DNA of 64,000 bases from Kordiimonas sp. SCSIO 12610 (GTDB lineage Bacteria > Pseudomonadota > Alphaproteobacteria > Sphingomonadales > Kordiimonadaceae): positions 878,501 to 942,500 of the forward strand of contig NZ_CP073747.1 in the NCBI RefSeq assembly GCF_024398015.1, given 5' to 3'. Within the stretch, counting starts at the first letter, position 1; every line of letters starts with the position of its first letter. Below, one piece after another: positions 32,435 through 40,940 of this stretch. The position numbers and the translations under genes are program-made. The notes under the pieces are model-generated. The model did no database searches. It saw only the letters and a program-made list of their open reading frames with translations, and was not told where the DNA came from.

Positions 32435-33415
32435 ATGTCTTGTTCAAAGAAAAGTTCAACAACGATCCGTAACAGCCTTATATCGGCAGCGGCTATCTTG
32501 ACAGTCGCCTGGTATTCGGCGGATGCCAAAAGCGAAACCCCCGTGCTTACAGAGGCAACAACCACGGCCGCAACCGCTGCCGCCGCATTAAGCCCGAAGG
32601 CTGAGGCAGTCCCCGCGATCTGGAAAGCGTCGGACGCGGACACGAATGTTTATCTTTTTGGAACCATTCATTTGCTGAAGGAAAGTACGAAATGGGAAAG
32701 CGCGGCTTTTTCCAAAGTGTTTGACGAAGCATCAGCCATTTACCTTGAGGCAGATGTAAGCCCGGAAGCACAATCAAAGCTTGCGCCGATCGTTCAAAAA
32801 TATGCATTTCTTGAGAACGGTGAAACATTGTCTGGTGTCTTGGGCGATCAAAGCGATGTGGTCCAAAAGGGCGCACAAAAACTGGGATTGCCGTTTGAGC
32901 GGATGCAGGGAATGAAGCCCTGGTTTGTTGCTGTTCAATTTGCCGGCAAGCAAATGATAGATGCGGGATACACGCCGGGCGCAGGGGTTGATGCGGTGAT
33001 CGCAGCGAAGGCAAAAGCCGCGCAAAAACCGATGCGCTTTTTTGAAAGCGTTGATGAGCAGCTAACGATCCTGTCGTCATTCCCGATGGACGGGCAGGTT
33101 CGTGTACTGGCGCGTGCCTCAAAGGAAATTCAGGATAAAGGGGTTAGCCAGCTTGATGAATTGGTTGATGTCTGGAAAGTCGGTGACGTTGACGGGCTGA
33201 ATGCGGTCGGCCTTAAGGATATGGTTTTAAGCACACCGGAAGCGTACAATAAAATTATCGTAAACCGCAATGCGAACTGGACAGAGCAAATCAAGGATCT
33301 GATGGATAAGGAAGCGGGAACCTTCCTTGTTGCTGTTGGTGCCCTCCATCTAGCAGGTGATGATAGTGTGGTTAAAATGCTGGAAGCAAGCGGGGTTTCT
33401 GTTGCTCGTCAGTAA
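32435..33415 (+). CDS. TraB/GumN family protein
   Basis: 326 aa from ATG 32435 (AAAAGGAGGAAGCT ribosome-binding site). Signal peptide, then the TraB/GumN fold: NVYLFGTIHLLKES near residue 70, YLEADVSPEA, PGAGVDAVIAAKAKA...FFESVDEQL and the C-terminal FLVAVGALHLAGDDSVV. The two GxxH motifs are the conserved putative metal or catalytic residues. Possibly a periplasmic metalloprotease-like enzyme; unproven. A GCACAC-AGT-GTGTGC palindrome lies at 32404-32418, just before the ribosome-binding site. Confidence 0.9.
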   Translation: MSCSKKSSTTIRNSLISAAAILTVAWYSADAKSETPVLTEATTTAATAAAALSPKAEAVPAIWKASDADTNVYLFGTIHLLKESTKWESAAFSKVFDEASAIYLEADVSPEAQSKLAPIVQKYAFLENGETLSGVLGDQSDVVQKGAQKLGLPFERMQGMKPWFVAVQFAGKQMIDAGYTPGAGVDAVIAAKAKAAQKPMRFFESVDEQLTILSSFPMDGQVRVLARASKEIQDKGVSQLDELVDVWKVGDVDGLNAVGLKDMVLSTPEAYNKIIVNRNANWTEQIKDLMDKEAGTFLVAVGALHLAGDDSVVKMLEASGVSVARQ

Positions 33416-33440
33416 GGCCATTTTTAATCTTAAAGTGTTG

Positions 33441-33470
33441 GGATACTGAGCGGTCTGCCCCTCAGTATCC
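33441..33470. terminator. Bidirectional hairpin terminator
   Basis: GGATACTGAG-cggtctgccc-CTCAGTATCC, a perfect 10-bp stem between the convergent TraB and membrane-protein genes. No long T run, so its efficiency is uncertain. Confidence 0.6.
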
Positions 33471-33479
33471 TGCCCGTAT

Positions 33480-34202
33480 TTACCAAACAATAATGAAAAT
33501 CAAAGCGTTCAAACCCGTTATCAAGCCTATCATGACGGCAGCCATTATTAAGGCCCGCATGGGCGTGAGCGACCCCACTTCTTTCATAAAGCAGAAATAT
33601 TGCCATGCGGGGATACCGAAGATTGGAATTGAATTATAACTATAAATTTCCTGCGAGACGGCTATTCCATAGGTTAGGCCGATATTGTCAATAACGGCGC
33701 TGGTACCAATAATCCAGAAAACGGATGTGGCCATTTGGTAGAAAGCAGCACGAAGGCTGACGTGTAATGTCCAGTTGGGGCCAATCCAGCGCTTTGGTAT
33801 TTGACCGAGAACGCCAACTATAATGGTGAAAATATAAAGCGGTCCGATATAGGAAATAACCTGCCAGATGTTTCCCTCTGCGGCTGCATTTGTGACACGA
33901 TACGCATAACCCGCCCCCAGAAAACTTCCGTTGACCTTTAGTATTTCCGGTGTAACAAAAAATCCAGCAAGCACCATAATGATGATGATAGCAAAAACAA
34001 AAAACACGCCGGGCCCCAACAGCATACCTTTTCTGCCGTCGTCTTCCTGATGAAGAAGCAAGGGGGCCAAACGTCGGGGCTGGAAAACAAGGTAAAAGAA
34101 GGTTGGAAAAACGCTTAGCGCTGTTAGCGCTATATTTTCCGTTAGTTTATCGATCGCACCGATAATGTTTTTCTGACTGGCATTAAGATCCGGTTCCAGC
34201 AT
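33480..34202 (-). CDS. Multi-pass membrane protein, Yip1-like
   Basis: 240 aa from ATG 34202 (GGGGAGGG ribosome-binding site). About five hydrophobic helices. Residues 30-60 resemble the start of Yip1-like proteins (FPTFFYLVFQPRRLAPLLLHQEDDGRKG). Family assignment is tentative and I see no catalytic motif. Convergent with TraB and preceded by 220 bp without a gene. Confidence 0.6.
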   Translation of the reverse strand: MLEPDLNASQKNIIGAIDKLTENIALTALSVFPTFFYLVFQPRRLAPLLLHQEDDGRKGMLLGPGVFFVFAIIIIMVLAGFFVTPEILKVNGSFLGAGYAYRVTNAAAEGNIWQVISYIGPLYIFTIIVGVLGQIPKRWIGPNWTLHVSLRAAFYQMATSVFWIIGTSAVIDNIGLTYGIAVSQEIYSYNSIPIFGIPAWQYFCFMKEVGSLTPMRALIMAAVMIGLITGLNALIFIIVW

Positions 34203-34455
34203 TTCTATCCCTCCCCATACAGTATATTCCCGCATGTCAGCCTACCCTGAAAGGGGCTGAAGGGAAAGCACAGACAGAAAATGCTGTTTTGCTTGCGGCA
34301 CTAGCTTACCGTTCCACAGCGATCAACTGAATATTTTCCTTTTCCTTACCAAAGCCAATGCTCTTGGGTTCTTTAAGTATAAAGTGCGGATCATTGAGCA
34401 TAGAATATATTCGTTTCATGCCTAAAATCCCGAAAATGATGAGTGGGAGAAACTA

Positions 34456-34665
34456 ATGATCGACCATCTCAGTGTGCATGTTGCCTTTCGAGCAACGAAA
34501 GGCGATCAGGTTGATGCCTTTTATGAGGCCGCACTTTTGTATGACAGTGTGTGCGACGGCAAGCCCGGCACGCGTAAGTATCCCCATGCTGATGTATACG
34601 CGGCTTGTGTAGGTTATCCGTTTGGTCATAAATTAGAGGTTATATGCAGTGGTTTTGCTGGATAG
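34456..34665 (+). pseudogene. Internally deleted VOC/glyoxalase-like gene
   Basis: 69 codons from ATG 34456. The first seven residues, MIDHLSV, match the start of VOC-family proteins (glyoxalase/bleomycin-resistance type). They run straight into a C-terminal half: HVAFRATKGDQVDAFYEAAL, DGKPGTRKYPHADVYAAC and GYPFGHKLEVICSGF. Full-length relatives are about 125 aa, so roughly 55 residues including the first beta-alpha-beta module are missing, in frame. Probably non-functional, though the reading frame is intact. Confidence 0.65.
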
Positions 34666-34679
34666 ATACTTTTTGAATA

Positions 34680-34715
34680 ATCAACAGCCCATAGACGATT
34701 TTAGGGGCTGTTGAT
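34680..34715. terminator. Bidirectional terminator
   Basis: ATCAACAGCCC ... GGGCTGTTGAT: 11-bp perfect stem, 14-nt loop, between the VOC remnant and the convergent membrane-protein operon. Confidence 0.75.
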
Positions 34716-34733
34716 ATTGTCAGGAATGTTATA

Positions 34734-35774
34734 TTAAGATAAGTCCTTGATGATCTGCTTTATATCATCCTTCATTTCAGTAGCATCGTCTTTTGCCAGT
34801 ATACCGTTTAATTTTGATGAAGTTTCTGTCGTTGTTTTGGTAACGGCTTTTTTGACTTCTGATTTGACTTTTTCTTTGTCGCTTCCTTTTACGATTGTTA
34901 CTAATGTATCTGAGAAACGTTGAAGAATCTGTATCACAGCTTCTGCGGAAAAGCCCCCGATGACACCGAGTAATTCAGGGCCGTATTTAATTATTCCAGT
35001 TTCTCCAAAATTATCGCCAGAATTAGGGATTATGATGTTAGCCAGTAAATATCCCGCGAATATTCCCAAAATTAACCTTATTAGGTAAACCTGTGTATAA
35101 CCAGGGTCAAATGTTTGAGCTTTGATATATTGACTAGCTGAATATAAAGCATAAAAAGCAGACCCAAGAAAGGCACCACCCAGCGAACTTATTAAGATAT
35201 TTGTGCTAAAGTCTTGTTTTGCAGTGGCGACTGGTGTTTTTTGAGCTTCAGTTTTACCAGAGGAGAGTGTCCCCTGTGGCGACGCTGGTGTTTCGGGCTT
35301 TTCTTGAGCTTCAATTTCACCAGAGGAGAGTGTCCCTTGGGGTGACGGTGGCGCTTCAGGCTTTTCTTGTTTTGTGCAGGTTGCTATTTTTGCACACGTT
35401 TCCAGGTTTGTGCATGTGGTCACATTTGTGCAGGGTGCAGGGCCAAATATATTGGCAAACATTATCATTAAAAACCCAACAAAACCGACCAAGGAACTAA
35501 TCATAACGGTTTTGTTGTTTAATGTGGAGCTGGCATCAATAGACATAGGGGTTGCGGGTTTGCACAGGTCGCCCAGAGTGTTATGCAGACTTAACAGATT
35601 ATCGGTACCGATGTTGGAGGCTTCAGTTGCCGGACGGGCGTTGTCTGCATTGGGTATATCAAGGGTCTTCAATAAAACGCTAACTTCTGTCGGAATTGAT
35701 TTACCTGTCTTCGCAAGGTACTTCAGCATAGTCTGTATTTCAGAAAATAGCTGTGATTTGTAGTCATTAAGCAT
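34734..35774 (-). CDS. Unknown membrane protein with Cys-hexad and 21-aa repeats (operon gene 3)
   Basis: 346 aa from ATG 35774 (AGGAGGCAAGA ribosome-binding site). Layout: soluble N-terminus (1-90), transmembrane segment about 92-112, then four cysteines spaced by six (CTNVTT, CTNLET, CAKIAT, CTKQ). Next come two 21-residue repeats (EKPEAPPSPQGTLSSG and EKPETPASPQGTLSSG), further hydrophobic segments (about 195-215 and 230-250), and a charged, probably coiled-coil tail rich in Lys/Thr/Asp. I recognise no family. Last gene of a tight three-gene, AT-rich operon (9 bp after the upstream gene). The tail may be an interaction domain; function unknown. Confidence 0.75.
   Translation of the reverse strand: MLNDYKSQLFSEIQTMLKYLAKTGKSIPTEVSVLLKTLDIPNADNARPATEASNIGTDNLLSLHNTLGDLCKPATPMSIDASSTLNNKTVMISSLVGFVGFLMIMFANIFGPAPCTNVTTCTNLETCAKIATCTKQEKPEAPPSPQGTLSSGEIEAQEKPETPASPQGTLSSGKTEAQKTPVATAKQDFSTNILISSLGGAFLGSAFYALYSASQYIKAQTFDPGYTQVYLIRLILGIFAGYLLANIIIPNSGDNFGETGIIKYGPELLGVIGGFSAEAVIQILQRFSDTLVTIVKGSDKEKVKSEVKKAVTKTTTETSSKLNGILAKDDATEMKDDIKQIIKDLS
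35240..35366. repeat. 63-bp tandem repeat, about two copies, inside the membrane protein gene
   Basis: Blocks containing TTGAGCTTCA, ACCAGAGGAGAGTGTCCC and TTTCGGGC/CTTCAGGC recur at a 63-bp period and encode the 21-residue Pro/Ser-rich repeats. Copy number could vary between strains. Confidence 0.75.
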
Positions 35775-35783
35775 TCTTGCCTC

Positions 35784-37061
35784 CTAGAAGTGTGTTTTGA
35801 AGCCTAATTCCACGACATTGTCACGGTCAACATCCAGTGGAAGTTCGCCGTTACTATAGGAAACATACATGCCGCCGAATAACCCGGTTAGGCTTACAGT
35901 CCATAACCGTTGATCGGTTAAGCCAGCCGCTTGGACCGCAGCCGAAGGCGAAAGTTCGCGGTAGTAGCGATAGTTTGCCGTTAAGAATACCGTATCGTCA
36001 GAGTATTTATCCAGTGCATCGATACCAAGATCAGGTATTCTGAATAATGGTGCGCTGTAGGAAGCTTCAAAATTTATTCGAGCATAGTTTGATGCATCAC
36101 CCGCTAACAGCACACGAGGCGTTTGATCATCAGGGTCAACTTGTGCAACGGCAAAACGTAAAAGTGGAAACTGTGTGCCGCGCGGACTAAGGTCTGGGTC
36201 TAATCCGGTCATAAACCTTACTATAGCAGCAGGATAATCAACCACATTTAGCCATTTAATGCTGTCTTTTTGTCGATAGTCATTCAGTGAAGCATATATT
36301 GAACCACCGTAGGTAAACTGCGATGCATTGAATGTTTGGTCAGTTTCATACCCAATATCTGCGGAAGCACTGGCAATAAACGTGACCCCTAAAGCTTCTC
36401 TATATGTATCAAGAGGGTCTTGACTCACGGTTCGTTTAACAGCTTCAGGGTATGAAATATTACCATTATCAGTATGCTCTTTTATCGCTGCACGACTACG
36501 CTGCTTGAACACATCGTTATGTTTTAAAGATTGCCCGCTAAAGTAACCCAGATGGCCTGTCAGCGACAGTTTTGTATCAATCATGTTTAAGGGATTGTTG
36601 CTGTCTTCAAACGCAAAGGTCCCTTTGCTTTGAAAATCAATTGACCCGAATGTACGATAGTGGCTACCGCAGTTCTGCGGGCTATCATTATCATTACAAC
36701 TTAAATTTTTGTTGCCATTTCCAAATGTACGAGATAGCGAATAGTCATATTCAATACCGAAATTGGCTTCCCCATCAGATTCAAAGGCCTTAAATTTCAA
36801 GGTTAACCCTTTATATTCAAACTTTTGATCTTCTAACGCATTTATCAAGAGGTTTTTAGGGTCCAAGCGTTTGCCAGAAATGATATCACAAAATGCATTT
36901 ATCGTTTGAGTTTGTTGGTTCGAACTAAGTGCAGTAAATTCAGGAAAATTGGTATCTAGTTTTTCCTCGCAATTCTCTACTTCATTAAAAGCATTAGCGT
37001 TACTAGTATACATCGACATATTTAATATCATGCCGATACAAAATATTAATCTTATTATCAC
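35784..37061 (-). CDS. Exported, outer-membrane-barrel-like protein of unknown family (operon gene 2)
   Basis: 425 aa from GTG 37061 (AAGGAG 8 nt upstream). Signal peptide to about residue 24 (SMYTSNANA). N-terminal segment with cysteines C30 and near 58. The remaining about 340 residues alternate polar and aromatic residues, as in beta-barrels (GLTLKFKAFESDGEANFGIE, ARINFEASYSAPLF). The last strand ends VVELGFKTHF, with the terminal Phe recognised by the BAM complex. Probably an outer-membrane protein, although I cannot name its family. Gap to the upstream gene is 17 bp, to the downstream gene 9 bp. Confidence 0.75.
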   Translation of the reverse strand: MIIRLIFCIGMILNMSMYTSNANAFNEVENCEEKLDTNFPEFTALSSNQQTQTINAFCDIISGKRLDPKNLLINALEDQKFEYKGLTLKFKAFESDGEANFGIEYDYSLSRTFGNGNKNLSCNDNDSPQNCGSHYRTFGSIDFQSKGTFAFEDSNNPLNMIDTKLSLTGHLGYFSGQSLKHNDVFKQRSRAAIKEHTDNGNISYPEAVKRTVSQDPLDTYREALGVTFIASASADIGYETDQTFNASQFTYGGSIYASLNDYRQKDSIKWLNVVDYPAAIVRFMTGLDPDLSPRGTQFPLLRFAVAQVDPDDQTPRVLLAGDASNYARINFEASYSAPLFRIPDLGIDALDKYSDDTVFLTANYRYYRELSPSAAVQAAGLTDQRLWTVSLTGLFGGMYVSYSNGELPLDVDRDNVVELGFKTHF

Positions 37062-37078
37062 GTGAATACTCCTTAAAC

Positions 37079-37438
37079 TTAAATTTCATCTTCGAATTTG
37101 ATTAATTTATCTATTTCATGAGCAAATCCACTGATGGTGCTCTCTTCATCGCTGATAAAAGTAGCTAGGCTTTCTATTACAGAATCTTCATTCTGGCCGT
37201 CTTCAAAGGAAAACTCTTGAGTCCGGTTTATCGCATAGTAAATATTTTGGGCGGCGCTTTTGGCTGCAGCTTGATTTTGGTCATTTCCCGCACCAGGTAC
37301 GATACCAAGCAGTCCACTTATTTTTATATTAGCTAACTGATTTGCTGTGAGCATCTCTAAGGATGGTTCTTTCGCGAAAAAATAAAAAATTGTTGCTCTG
37401 CGTGCATCAATGGAATCAGGCCATAGATTTTCTGGCAT
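37079..37438 (-). CDS. Small acidic cytosolic protein of unknown family (operon gene 1)
   Basis: 119 aa from ATG 37438 (AAGGGAGAG ribosome-binding site; a longer start at 37459 would pass through it). No signal peptide or transmembrane segment. Helical and acidic, with ANIKISGLLGIVPGAGNDQNQAAA in the middle and a C-terminal acidic helix (EIDKLIKFEDEI). No recognised domain. First gene of the AT-rich three-gene operon; the 296 bp upstream (37439-37734) hold the divergent promoters of this operon and the VIT/VWA gene. Confidence 0.68.
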   Translation of the reverse strand: MPENLWPDSIDARRATIFYFFAKEPSLEMLTANQLANIKISGLLGIVPGAGNDQNQAAAKSAAQNIYYAINRTQEFSFEDGQNEDSVIESLATFISDEESTISGFAHEIDKLIKFEDEI

Positions 37439-37734
37439 TTTTCTCTCCCTTTTGATCATTCTTAATGTTTTGGTAACTATTATTTATTGCATACATACAT
37501 CGGTAAAGTCTGTGACGGTTGGCACGGTTGGTGAAATTTTATTTTTCGCCCTATATCGTCATATTTGGTGTGTTTTCAGGCAGGATTGGACGGCTTTTGC
37601 CGTAATTGGCCTGGTTTCGGCACAATCGGCGATTTTCGGCATAGTTTTTCCGAAAACATCATAATTCCGGCAAAGGCCGGACATCATCCCATTTCATAAC
37701 GGTCCGCATATCAATCTAAGAAGCGAGACCTATC

Positions 37735-40119
37735 ATGACACAAACAGCACCTACAAGGCTGAGGGCAGGGTATGCCCGCACGCAGGCGCGGCCATCCAAA
37801 CAAAAACCAAATGACCTTCAAATCGCAACGACGCTTTATAAAGCGGGAACCATTTTTCAGATCGGGATTTTAATTCTATCGCTTTTGTTCGCCTTCTCAG
37901 TGGCATCTGCTGCCTCCGAGCACGGTGATACCAAGCGTGCGCTTGGCGGATTGAAAATTGTTCCCATCAGATCAGCGGATACGGCGGCAACGGGCGAGCC
38001 CCAAGATAATTCTGGCCAGTCTCCTTCGCCTCGCCAGCCGCATGGAACTGACGTGCTTCCTGCTATCCCGCGGCCAAGCGCACCAATTATTGAGGATGCG
38101 CTTCTGCTCGCGAGTGAAATTGATGTGAAAATCACCGGCATGATCGTCCACACCACGGTTAAGCAAACCTTTAAAAACCAAACTGCTGACTGGATTGAAG
38201 GGATGTATCGTTTTCCGCTGCCGGATAACGCCGCCGTCGATAGCATGACCATGATCATCGGTGATCGCCGGATTGTCGGGAAAATCAAGGAAAAGGAAGC
38301 CGCGAAAAAGATTTATACCGATGCGGTTAAGGCCGGTAAGAAGGCGGCATTACTGCAGGAACATCGGCCCAACATGTTTTCAACACGGGTTGGTAATGTG
38401 GCACCGGGTGCGCTGATTGCGGTTGAGCTAACGTTCCTCTCTACCGCAGGGCAAAATAACCTCAAATTCGATTGGACCATGCCGCAGGCGATCACCCCCC
38501 GCTTTAATTTCCAGCAGCCTTTGATCGACGGCGATGGCACTTCGATTGCGCCTTCTGGTGTCTCTTCTGGTGCTGATCTTTATGATGTTAAAGCGGCTAG
38601 AGAAAACCCATATAAGGGCAGCGCGAACAAAACCTCTTTTTCGGTTCACCTGAACGCGGGAACAGCCATTGAAAACCTATTAAGCACGAGCCATGATCTT
38701 TCGGTTACCCGCTTTGGCGAAGGGGAATTTCGGATTGCCCTAAAGGATGGTGCCTTGCCCGCGGACCGTGATTTTAACCTGTCTTGGGAACTGGTGCCCG
38801 GCAGCAACGTGCAATCGGTATTGTTCAGGGAAACAGGCCCGCTGATCATAGTGGACGGCGAGGCCGCGCGGGAAGATGCCGACTATATCCTTGGGTTTGT
38901 TTTGCCACCAAATCCCACTGTTGACTTGTATGTGCCGCCGCGTGATGTGGTGTTCATTATCGATACCTCGGGCTCGATGGGCGGGGCGTCCATCCGACAG
39001 GCGAAAACCGCGCTTTTGCACGCGGTTGATCTGCTGCGCCCCGAGGATAAGTTTGATATTATCGAGTTCAATAGCAACCACACGCGCCTGTTCGGCAATA
39101 GCGAAATGGTAACCTCGGAAAGCCTTGCCCGTGCCCGTCATTTCATCCGCCGGTTGGATGCAAACGGTGGCACAAACATGATGCCTGCCCTTAAGGATGC
39201 GCTCGATGATGCGCGCGACCTCGAGGCCGAAAAGCAAATCCTTTTCTTAACTGACGGCGCTGTGGGGTATGAGGATGCCATGTTCCGCCTTGTGGAGGAG
39301 AAACTCGGCAGTGCGCGTTTGTTCACTGTCGGGATCGGAAGCGCCCCCAACGGCTGGTTTATGCGTAAGGCAGCGGAATTTGGCCGTGGGCTGCATATCC
39401 AAATTGGCGATGTGGCGACAGCGGGTGTGAAGCTGGAGGAACTCTATAGCGCGATGGCACGCCCAAGCCTTTCCTCATTATCGCTTTCCAGACCGTTTTC
39501 TCAGGCGCTTTCTGGGCCGCTTTCATCAGATTTGGATGATCCCACAGGTGAAAATAACCGCGCTAGCATTGAAAGCTACCCCGCAACCTTGCCTGATCTT
39601 TTCGGTGCGCATCCTGCGGTCTTTATGGCGCGCGTTCAAAAGGGCACTGGCCTTGAAACGCTTCAGCTCTCTGGCGTGCTGCCGGACGGCGGGAACTGGC
39701 AGAAAGACCTTAAGCTATCGGACGTTAAGGAAGGCAAAGGCATCGCCAAAATGTGGGCGCGTAAAAAGGTGGAGGGCCTTATGGATGCGCGGGTTCGCGG
39801 CGCCAACCCTGATATGGTGCGCAAGGATATTCTTGATGTCGCCCTGATGCATAAAATCCTCAGCCCATTCACAAGCTTTGTCGCTGTGGAAGAGAAAATA
39901 TCGCGCCCTCAAACTGACGCACTTAAACTTTCCAACGCTAAGGGTAACCTGCCGCACGGCACGGAAGCCAAAAGGTTCCACGGGCCGCGCACGGCAACGC
40001 CGCTTTCCTTCAAATTTATCAGTGGGTTGATTGCCTTCTTCCTCGCGCTGGTTGGGTTTTTGGTGCTGAAATATCCGCTACCAAGGGTCAGCAGCCTTGC
40101 AAGTGGGCGCCTACCATGA
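37735..40119 (+). CDS. Marine proteobacterial sortase target protein (VIT and VWA domains)
   Basis: 794 aa from ATG 37735. N-terminal transmembrane/signal segment about 40-65. VIT domain about 110-240 (MIVHTTVKQTFKNQTADWIEGMYRFPLP). VWA domain about 405-570 with MIDAS D410-x-S412-x-S414 (DTSGSMGG). The C-terminus has GPRTATP (750-756), a hydrophobic helix (ISGLIAFFLALVGFLVLK) and a short basic end. Family knowledge (TIGR03788-type): a sortase substrate encoded beside its dedicated sortase. The sorting box normally reads LPxTA/G; here Leu is replaced by Gly. ATGA overlap with the sortase gene. Confidence 0.92.
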   Translation: MTQTAPTRLRAGYARTQARPSKQKPNDLQIATTLYKAGTIFQIGILILSLLFAFSVASAASEHGDTKRALGGLKIVPIRSADTAATGEPQDNSGQSPSPRQPHGTDVLPAIPRPSAPIIEDALLLASEIDVKITGMIVHTTVKQTFKNQTADWIEGMYRFPLPDNAAVDSMTMIIGDRRIVGKIKEKEAAKKIYTDAVKAGKKAALLQEHRPNMFSTRVGNVAPGALIAVELTFLSTAGQNNLKFDWTMPQAITPRFNFQQPLIDGDGTSIAPSGVSSGADLYDVKAARENPYKGSANKTSFSVHLNAGTAIENLLSTSHDLSVTRFGEGEFRIALKDGALPADRDFNLSWELVPGSNVQSVLFRETGPLIIVDGEAAREDADYILGFVLPPNPTVDLYVPPRDVVFIIDTSGSMGGASIRQAKTALLHAVDLLRPEDKFDIIEFNSNHTRLFGNSEMVTSESLARARHFIRRLDANGGTNMMPALKDALDDARDLEAEKQILFLTDGAVGYEDAMFRLVEEKLGSARLFTVGIGSAPNGWFMRKAAEFGRGLHIQIGDVATAGVKLEELYSAMARPSLSSLSLSRPFSQALSGPLSSDLDDPTGENNRASIESYPATLPDLFGAHPAVFMARVQKGTGLETLQLSGVLPDGGNWQKDLKLSDVKEGKGIAKMWARKKVEGLMDARVRGANPDMVRKDILDVALMHKILSPFTSFVAVEEKISRPQTDALKLSNAKGNLPHGTEAKRFHGPRTATPLSFKFISGLIAFFLALVGFLVLKYPLPRVSSLASGRLP

Positions 40120-40940
40120 GTGAAATGTTCATGAGTGAAATGGCACAAGAGAGTAGGTGGCCCCAAGGGGCTGAGAGGCCCCAAGTGAGTGAAAGGAAGG
40201 ACGCTGCTGGCGTCCTTCCCATCGGGCGGTCGGTGGCAAACAGCAAGACGAGGAACCGCAATCAACGGCGCAGGCCGCGCATACCCATGACCTTTAAGCT
40301 CGTACTTGTTTTGCTGATTGGCTTCACGGGCTATCAGTGGTTCGGCGCGGGGCTGATCGCCTTTAAGGCATGGCTTGCCCCCATATTAATTGAGCATGCG
40401 TGGGAGCGCGACAGGGCAGACGCCGCTGACATAGGGCCACTTGCCACCACGCCGACAAAGCCATGGCCGTGGGCCGATACCTACCCGGAGGCGAAATTGA
40501 CCCTGCTTAAATCCCCAGGACTATATAAATCCAAAGGGCTTAATAAATCCGAGGGACTTGATAGGACGGAAGTTGCCCATCGTTTTGTGCTTAAGGGCAC
40601 GGATATGGCGGCGCTGGCCTTTGGCCCTGTGCGCCTGGAAGGGACGGGTGCGGATATCCTTTTTGGGCACAGGGAAACCCATTTCAGGATGCTTCAGGAT
40701 ATTCAAAAGGGCGATGTCCTTAAGATGGAAAACCGCGAAGGCCGCGTGCAGGCCTATGAGGTGAAGGATATCTGGGTCACCCATATGGATGAAATGTATG
40801 CCCCGAACGTGTCTGAGGGCGGGAAGGGCCTGATGCTCGTGACCTGTTATCCGTTTGACGGTATCAGTTCGCCCGGCAATATGCCAACGGACCGATATAT
40901 CGTGTGGGCAGAACCCATCTCACCGCGCATCAGCGGTTAG
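40116..40940 (+). CDS. Class GN sortase (marine proteobacterial sortase)
   Basis: 274 aa from ATG 40116, overlapping the target-gene stop by 4 nt. Cytosolic tail to residue 57, then transmembrane segment 59-82 and the sortase barrel. Catalytic His in FGHRETHF (H185/H188), Cys in LVTCYPF (C244) and Arg in DRYIVWA (R260). The first 57 residues are low-complexity and longer than expected; ATG at 40287 (MTFKLVLV) is an alternative start. The start region has a direct repeat of ATGAGTGAAATG at 40116 and 40131. Residues 135-152 are a tandem hexapeptide (GLYKSK, GLNKSE, GLDRTE). Confidence 0.93.
   Translation: MSEMFMSEMAQESRWPQGAERPQVSERKDAAGVLPIGRSVANSKTRNRNQRRRPRIPMTFKLVLVLLIGFTGYQWFGAGLIAFKAWLAPILIEHAWERDRADAADIGPLATTPTKPWPWADTYPEAKLTLLKSPGLYKSKGLNKSEGLDRTEVAHRFVLKGTDMAALAFGPVRLEGTGADILFGHRETHFRMLQDIQKGDVLKMENREGRVQAYEVKDIWVTHMDEMYAPNVSEGGKGLMLVTCYPFDGISSPGNMPTDRYIVWAEPISPRISG
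40518..40571. repeat. 18-bp tandem repeat, three units, in the sortase gene
   Basis: Units begin GGACTATATAAATCCAAA, GGGCTTAATAAATCCGAG and GGACTTGATAGGACGGAA. In frame, between the membrane anchor and catalytic barrel. Confidence 0.75.

Follow-up and report, generated by a model that had tools for sequence, protein, structure and literature searches.

A probably acquired orphan operon of Kordiimonas sp. SCSIO 12610 and the unnamed membrane-protein family of its third gene

The operon and its first two products

The operon described here lies in the alphaproteobacterium Kordiimonas sp. SCSIO 12610, within a stretch of 64,000 nucleotides of contig NZ_CP073747.1 (assembly GCF_024398015.1, positions 878,501 to 942,500 of the forward strand) that is referred to as the window and whose own numbering is used throughout. 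It is composed of three open reading frames (ORFs) on the minus strand, gA, gB and gC, which occupy positions 34734-37438 and are separated by gaps of 17 bp (gA/gB) and 9 bp (gB/gC), exactly where an earlier note made from the letters alone had placed them (Table 1). The good ribosome-binding sites claimed in that note can be read directly in the sequence as the Shine-Dalgarno motifs AGGGAG before gA, AGGAG before gB and AGGAGG before gC, and a longer in-frame start for gA is present at 37459. A scan for sigma-70 promoters was uninformative (9 found, 9.7 expected). The trio is also poorer in guanine plus cytosine (GC) than its flanks, as had been noticed: its GC content is 40.9% against 48.2% for the whole window, a low but not unique value that is equalled or undercut in 3 of 613 same-size windows. 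Searches of Pfam, NCBIfam, PHROGs and PADLOC returned no row above a curated cut-off for any of the three products, the weak rows obtained (DUF643, Terminase_3C, DUF3443 and PDC-S02) being taken as chance, and sequence searches of the PDB gave chance rows or none. The trio is a real orphan operon that was probably gained laterally, and the most useful outcome of its analysis is an unnamed protein family, that of gC, together with the suggestive association of this family with cell-wall hydrolases.

Table 1. Features of the operon and of the surrounding islet, in window positions
Feature	Position	Strand	Basis and remarks
gA	37079..37438	-	ORF, ATG start; 119 amino acids (aa), acidic, no signal peptide or transmembrane segment
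gB	35784..37061	-	ORF, GTG start; 425 aa, signal peptide, C-terminal Phe strand; probable outer-membrane protein
gC	34734..35774	-	ORF, ATG start; 346 aa, predicted inner-membrane protein of an unnamed family
gC ribosome-binding site, AGGAGG	35780..35785	-	Read in the sequence; overlaps the gB stop codon
gC residues 115-133, four Cys six apart	35376..35432	-	Predicted periplasmic; not seen in relatives
gC Pro/Ser-rich repeat	35237..35362	-	Repeat detection; two 63-nt tandem copies
Stem-loop after gC	34680..34715	.	13/14 pairs; pattern once in the genome
Islet (approximate ends)	33416..37615	.	Absent from the sister species; flanked by TraB-like and sortase-target genes
Further islet gene	33480..34235	-	ORF; 251-aa multi-helix membrane protein, no family match; outside the operon
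Further islet ORF	34456..34665	+	ORF, plasmid records; 69 aa, shortened VOC/glyoxalase-like, probably a remnant

The first product, gA, had been described as a small acidic soluble protein, and its composition agrees with this, 20 Asp/Glu standing against 8 Lys/Arg with no hydrophobic segment. For gB, the earlier description was that of a signal-peptide protein ending in a barrel-like strand with a terminal Phe. A hydropathy scan does detect a single N-terminal hydrophobic segment, with a cleavage site (ANA) judged by eye and nothing else above threshold in the mature protein, and the C-terminus reads VVELGFKTHF. A C-terminal Phe with alternating hydrophobic residues is the rule for the beta-signal of outer-membrane proteins, and this pattern is kept in all three gB sequences (VVELGFKTHF, VVEIGFKTHF and SVELGFHTYF, a Shewanella fragment included).

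Relatives of gB are scarce. Among 59 relatives of the host it is present only in its own genome and in G019, a genome of the genus Kordiimonas, and these two account for its occurrence in 396 genomes of the order; searches of 385 genomes from the class and 398 from the phylum found it in its own genome only. The two proteins share 46% identity over their alignment, with 22-29% in the first 150 residues and 92% in the last 25 aligned. Comparison of the two sequences, with nonsynonymous differences (pN) of 0.38 against synonymous ones (pS) of 0.79 at sites near saturation, indicates that gB is under purifying selection and thus a selected gene. Pattern scans of viral, phage and genome contigs, which reach close relatives only, confirmed none of 98 pattern matches for gB in viral contigs and none of 28 in genome contigs, and nothing was found in phages. 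A C-terminal remnant of gB was recovered on a conjugative plasmid of Shewanella decolorationis, in a 77-aa ORF without a listed gene (query residues 363-425, 47.6% identity; with the G019 protein as query, residues 299-399, 40.2% identity). On this plasmid, pNi1-3, an annotated abortive-infection protein (L004:13478-14302) is encoded about 5 kb from the remnant. As for gA, sequence searches gave no plasmid match and, among the 59 relatives, retrieved only gA itself. In G019, the gB relative is preceded, at a distance of 5 bp, by a weakly gA-like ORF of 121 aa (21% identity, two-sequence E 0.001); with gA as the sole query this ORF was not found at E 0.1.

The gC family and its gene neighbourhoods

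It had been stated that the operon matches no recognisable family, which holds for the named libraries but not beyond them: as judged from sequence comparison, gC belongs, as a divergent member, to an unnamed family of helical membrane proteins spread over several phyla. Searches by tblastn identified relatives on large replicons of Paracoccus (E 1e-8, residues 4-296) and Burkholderia (6e-14, residues 201-297), and among the 59 relatives gC was found in its own genome and in G017, of the same genus as G019 (8.9e-16 over residues 191-301). When genome contigs were scanned with patterns from three members, tblastn confirmed 67 distinct loci among the 214 pattern matches obtained, in hosts that include Burkholderiales, Xanthomonas, Nitrosomonas, Methylococcales, Kordiimonas marina, Bacteroidota, Acidobacteria, Planctomycetota and others; in viral contigs, none of 46 pattern matches was confirmed. 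The family is wide but rare, since only 2 of 398 genomes of an even phylum sample carry it, the host genome counted.

To characterize gC within this family, 43 of the 67 loci were aligned with the window gC (alignment A8), after removal by eye of near-duplicates and of some loci that lack the start motif. The A8 profile recovers the host genome (G000) at E 1.4e-71, a partly circular value given that the window gC is within the profile. The similarity covers the N-terminal domain and helices 2-4, and of the 40 columns with 90% conservation or more in the other 43 members gC retains 32, 3 of its 8 changed columns falling in a stretch poorly aligned by MAFFT. With relatives such as those of Burkholderia stagnalis (L007:7479-8534) and Kordiimonas marina (L012), gC has in common an N-terminal helical motif with conserved Glu and Met, a hydrophobic first helix, a YDPxYxxSY-type loop, an LGGFSAxAV helix and a charged C-terminal helix, whereas it lacks the GPVPLIR-type stretch and carries a periplasmic loop about 50 residues longer, with a Cys repeat and Pro/Ser repeats, as seen by eye on A8. 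No Pfam or NCBIfam model is matched convincingly by the 44 members of A8, the commonest Pfam row being DUF3611 (5 of 44, best E 0.00066) and that of lowest E being PXA (1 of 44, E 0.00049), and no relative of the family was found among the solved structures of the PDB.

The description of gC as a multi-segment membrane protein with Pro/Ser repeats was accurate, the repeat being a 63-nt tandem of 2.1 copies (35237-35369), and the "Cys-hexad" of the same description is a row of four Cys spaced six residues apart (positions 115, 121, 127 and 133, with a further Cys at 71). Since MAFFT pairs this stretch with the first helix of the relatives, whose true counterpart is probably gC 89-110, loop lengths from the alignment were left unused. 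None of the 43 relatives in A8 has at least four Cys in the aligned stretch, and the Cys repeat seems to be confined to this genome. The AlphaFold2 model of gC is all helical, with a mean predicted local distance difference test (pLDDT) score of 74.9 and values below 50 for residues 145-174, and when read together with the alignment suggests a protein that would span the membrane with four helices and keep both ends inside; the hydropathy scan alone flags two segments only. Foldseek searches with this model gave a best E of 2.6, and a second look with VIA-align a best Z of 6.2, within the chance range for helical models. Geranyltransferase, BAR proteins, TMEM175, K2P channels and holins, considered as fold candidates from the PDB and from viral models, all stood at chance level and were rejected.

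The gene context of the family was compared at 69 loci, the 67 confirmed ones plus Paracoccus L005 and Burkholderia L007, by profile searches of six-frame ORFs with simple ORF gene models. While gC neighbours gA-gB, genes for Bestrophin-like, GH19, lysozyme or DUF2589 proteins lie near many of its relatives. A peptidoglycan hydrolase (GH19 or phage-type lysozyme) is encoded within 3.5 kb of the gC relative in 29 of the 69 loci and a Bestrophin-like gene adjoins it in 29, both counts being without a background control, and DUF2589-type genes are present in 22. GH19 accounts for 15 loci, always within 0.84 kb even though most loci extend 8 kb to each side, and phage-type lysozyme for 14 others at 2.4-3.4 kb, all of them from Burkholderia, Paraburkholderia or Trinickia. 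According to the record titles, the 29 hydrolase-bearing loci represent perhaps eight lineages, and for this reason, together with the lack of a background control, the association of the gC family with peptidoglycan hydrolases is only suggestive. Effector-type genes also occur within three genes of single relatives, namely patatin (L005, L059), Stv (L021), an AvrRpt2/C39-like protease (L058), HBL-like proteins (L066) and a TIR protein (L077). Two observations speak against a theme shared by the loci: 75 Pfam families, many of them unrelated and metabolic, are found among 93 chosen neighbours (90 of the 190 listed plus 3 others, picked by eye as set A9, so that the tally is indicative only), and the Kordiimonas marina copy adjoins a tRNA synthetase gene. 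The recurrence of this family in several phyla beside GH19 or phage-type hydrolases and Bestrophin-like genes provides a testable hint of a function linked to lysis or export.

On plasmid pFER3 of Paracoccus ferrooxidans (L005:4369-12579), patatin, a gC relative with a long C-terminal extension, a hypothetical protein and an Amidase_2/PG_binding/GH19 protein form a compact cluster, which has an identical layout on pTAV3 of P. versutus. In Burkholderia stagnalis (L007:7479-12356), the gC relative is followed by a Bestrophin-like gene, a LuxR regulator on the opposite strand, two DUF2589 proteins and a phage lysozyme, an arrangement that recurs in several Burkholderiaceae. Finally, in a metagenome-assembled genome of the Kiloniellales (L066:4977-7325), the gC relative is adjoined by two related genes, at least one of which matches the Bacillus HBL pore-former family.

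The islet and its surroundings

The operon belongs to an islet that is missing from a sister species of the same genus (G001). In the latter, the TraB/GumN-like and sortase-target genes that flank the islet (68% protein identity each) are neighbours, with about 450 bp between their ORFs. DNA similarity between the two genomes ends at window position 33369 and restarts at 37616, which corresponds to 4.2 kb in the host genome and about 0.4 kb in the sister species, and the GC content of the span 33416-37615 is 42.1%. In addition to the trio, the islet contains a gene for a membrane protein of 251 aa, for which no match was obtained in Pfam, NCBIfam, PHROGs, PADLOC or plasmids, and the VOC-like ORF, which resembles VOC proteins in 157 plasmid records, none of which reaches 60% identity. 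Among the five islet ORFs, PADLOC models recognised no known defence gene, the one weak row having an E of 0.019 (gA). A prophage origin was dropped, as the five ORFs are without a PHROGs match, integrase or transposase and no tRNA is present in the window.

Given that gB and gC are rare among the relatives (2 of 59 each, the host genome counted), the islet was probably acquired laterally. The earlier proposal that the genes were transferred is supported by the roughly 0.4 kb at the sister site, the low GC, the patchy distribution and the plasmid-borne remnant of gB, without being proven: the two flanking genes are both found in three other genomes (G003, G009 and G010) of the ten searched, and because they lie far apart there, these genomes provide no outgroup for the site.

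Downstream of gC, the 11-bp terminator that had been proposed corresponds to a real stem-loop with a stem of 14 bp, which is not a canonical intrinsic terminator, since on the minus strand it then runs into TATTCAAAAAG in place of a U-tract; it is not among the sites listed by a consensus terminator scan. The possibility of a mobile repeat was discarded, the pattern being single-copy in the 3.5-Mb genome. On the other side, a sortase-target operon (37735-40940, plus strand) adjoins the trio divergently. It encodes a VIT/VWA "marine proteobacterial sortase target" protein above the NCBIfam cut-off, whose gene is kept in the sister species, followed by a class GN sortase-like product (129.8 bits, below the cut-off of 158.25). 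Repeated CGGCA-type words, noticed by eye upstream of the sortase-target gene (37516-37665), are partly conserved in the sister species. Literature searches on DUF2589, DUF4239, Kordiimonadaceae with sortase and proteobacterial sortases yielded nothing useful.

A joint conduit or separate parts

In the earlier note, the trio was read as one envelope-spanning system. The searches made do not bear this out: no second occurrence of the complete trio was encountered, gA-gB recur in G019, where the gC profile finds nothing, and the gA and gB profiles find nothing beside any other gC. This corresponds to one of the two findings that the note gave as refuting its reading, namely homologs that are scattered and never all together. 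From the sequences compared, the trio resembles a private joining of two modules, gA-gB and gC. The idea of one system is weakened by the occurrence of each module without the other, and is kept alive by the overlap between the gB stop and the ribosome-binding site of gC.

With due reserve, the best single mechanism is a laterally acquired envelope conduit made of gA, gB and gC, whose joint function is unproven. According to this model, gB would form a beta-barrel in the outer membrane, serving as a dedicated pore; gC would span the inner membrane four times, with cytoplasmic ends and a Cys/Pro-rich arm in the periplasm; and gA would be a cytoplasmic chaperone, regulator or cargo. Together, the three would constitute or supply a conduit through the envelope. 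Like its relatives probably do, gC would act as an inner-membrane element serving a cell-wall activity, either export or controlled release. The conduit is favoured by the tight gaps and strong ribosome-binding sites, the islet-free sister species, the purifying selection on gB, the pairing of gB with a gA-like gene in G019, the kept C-terminal strand, the conserved columns of gC and the GH19, lysozyme, Bestrophin-like and effector-type genes near gC relatives.

Several observations count against it. A structure model of gB from its single sequence (pLDDT 31.9) gives a barrel no support, and a crude count of amphipathic strands is 10 in gB against 9.1 in shuffles, 435 of 1000 shuffles reaching it; the count in the G019 relative is 14, without a shuffle control. 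The gA pairing in G019 depends mainly on position and size, the Cys/Pro arm of gC is private to this genome, and the profile searches beside other gC genes leave the co-function of all three unproven. Moreover, the gene contexts were counted in related species, for the most part Burkholderiales, and neither a peptidoglycan hydrolase nor a Bestrophin-like neighbour was recognised for the window gC in the five ORFs of the islet and the three flanking proteins scanned. Finally, the gain of the islet is not polarised, only one genome showing the islet-free site.

About as plausible as the conduit is a reading in which gA-gB are a small outer-membrane uptake or surface pair and gC a separate gene, co-transcribed with them since the islet assembled them, although this is a statement of history more than of mechanism. 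It accounts for gA-gB without gC in G019 and for gC-type genes without gA-gB in Kordiimonas marina and at other loci, and two further ORFs of the islet, an unrelated one for a membrane protein and a shortened VOC-like one, are as expected for a gene-trap site. The tight spacing of the three genes and the overlap at the gB/gC junction, however, suggest more than loose co-location.

A conflict or defence islet, with gC as membrane effector or release element and gA-gB as sensor or immunity partner, is unlikely. The islet is certainly rare, patchy and low in GC, the gB remnant is on a conjugative plasmid not far from an annotated abortive-infection gene, and patatin and TIR genes lie near some gC relatives, but PADLOC gave no convincing row, family scans named no nuclease, NTPase or other effector in the operon, and outer-membrane proteins are generally not typical of defence systems. 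Still less probable is a lysis-type release, in which the gC family would be holin-like, with an endolysin-like enzyme next to it, and the trio would be a reduced or rewired version: the hydrolase genes near 29 of 69 relatives speak for it, while no hydrolase is recognised in the five islet ORFs scanned, both the N-terminal domain and the C-terminal helix of gC are long, and gC finds no holin in Pfam or PHROGs and only chance-level holin rows in fold searches (E 4.9 and 7.5). Nor is a spanin matched by Pfam or PHROGs in the islet, such libraries covering spanins poorly.

Returning to the conduit, its boldest form would be a new minimal export device, in which gC gained the Cys-repeat and Pro-rich arm and was wired to an outer-membrane barrel and a cytosolic cargo or chaperone, the parts travelling in islets and on plasmids; this we regard as improbable. 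The trio and the islet-free sister species constitute a natural experiment on whether a private combination of envelope parts yields a new function.

Among known systems, type I secretion and tripartite efflux find no counterpart, as no ABC or RND pump, periplasmic adaptor or TolC-like protein was recognised among the eight islet and flank proteins. gB is not matched by a Pfam barrel family or PDB sequence, but resembles outer-membrane beta-barrels in its signal peptide, the absence of an internal hydrophobic helix and the C-terminal Phe with alternating hydrophobic residues. Type 10 secretion systems are reported to consist of a holin, a peptidoglycan hydrolase and a spanin (PMC10847048, PMC13284979). 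Compared with these systems, the islet has an outer-membrane-type protein instead of a recognised hydrolase; the likeness is one of idea only, namely a membrane protein placed beside a peptidoglycan hydrolase, as in many gC relatives.

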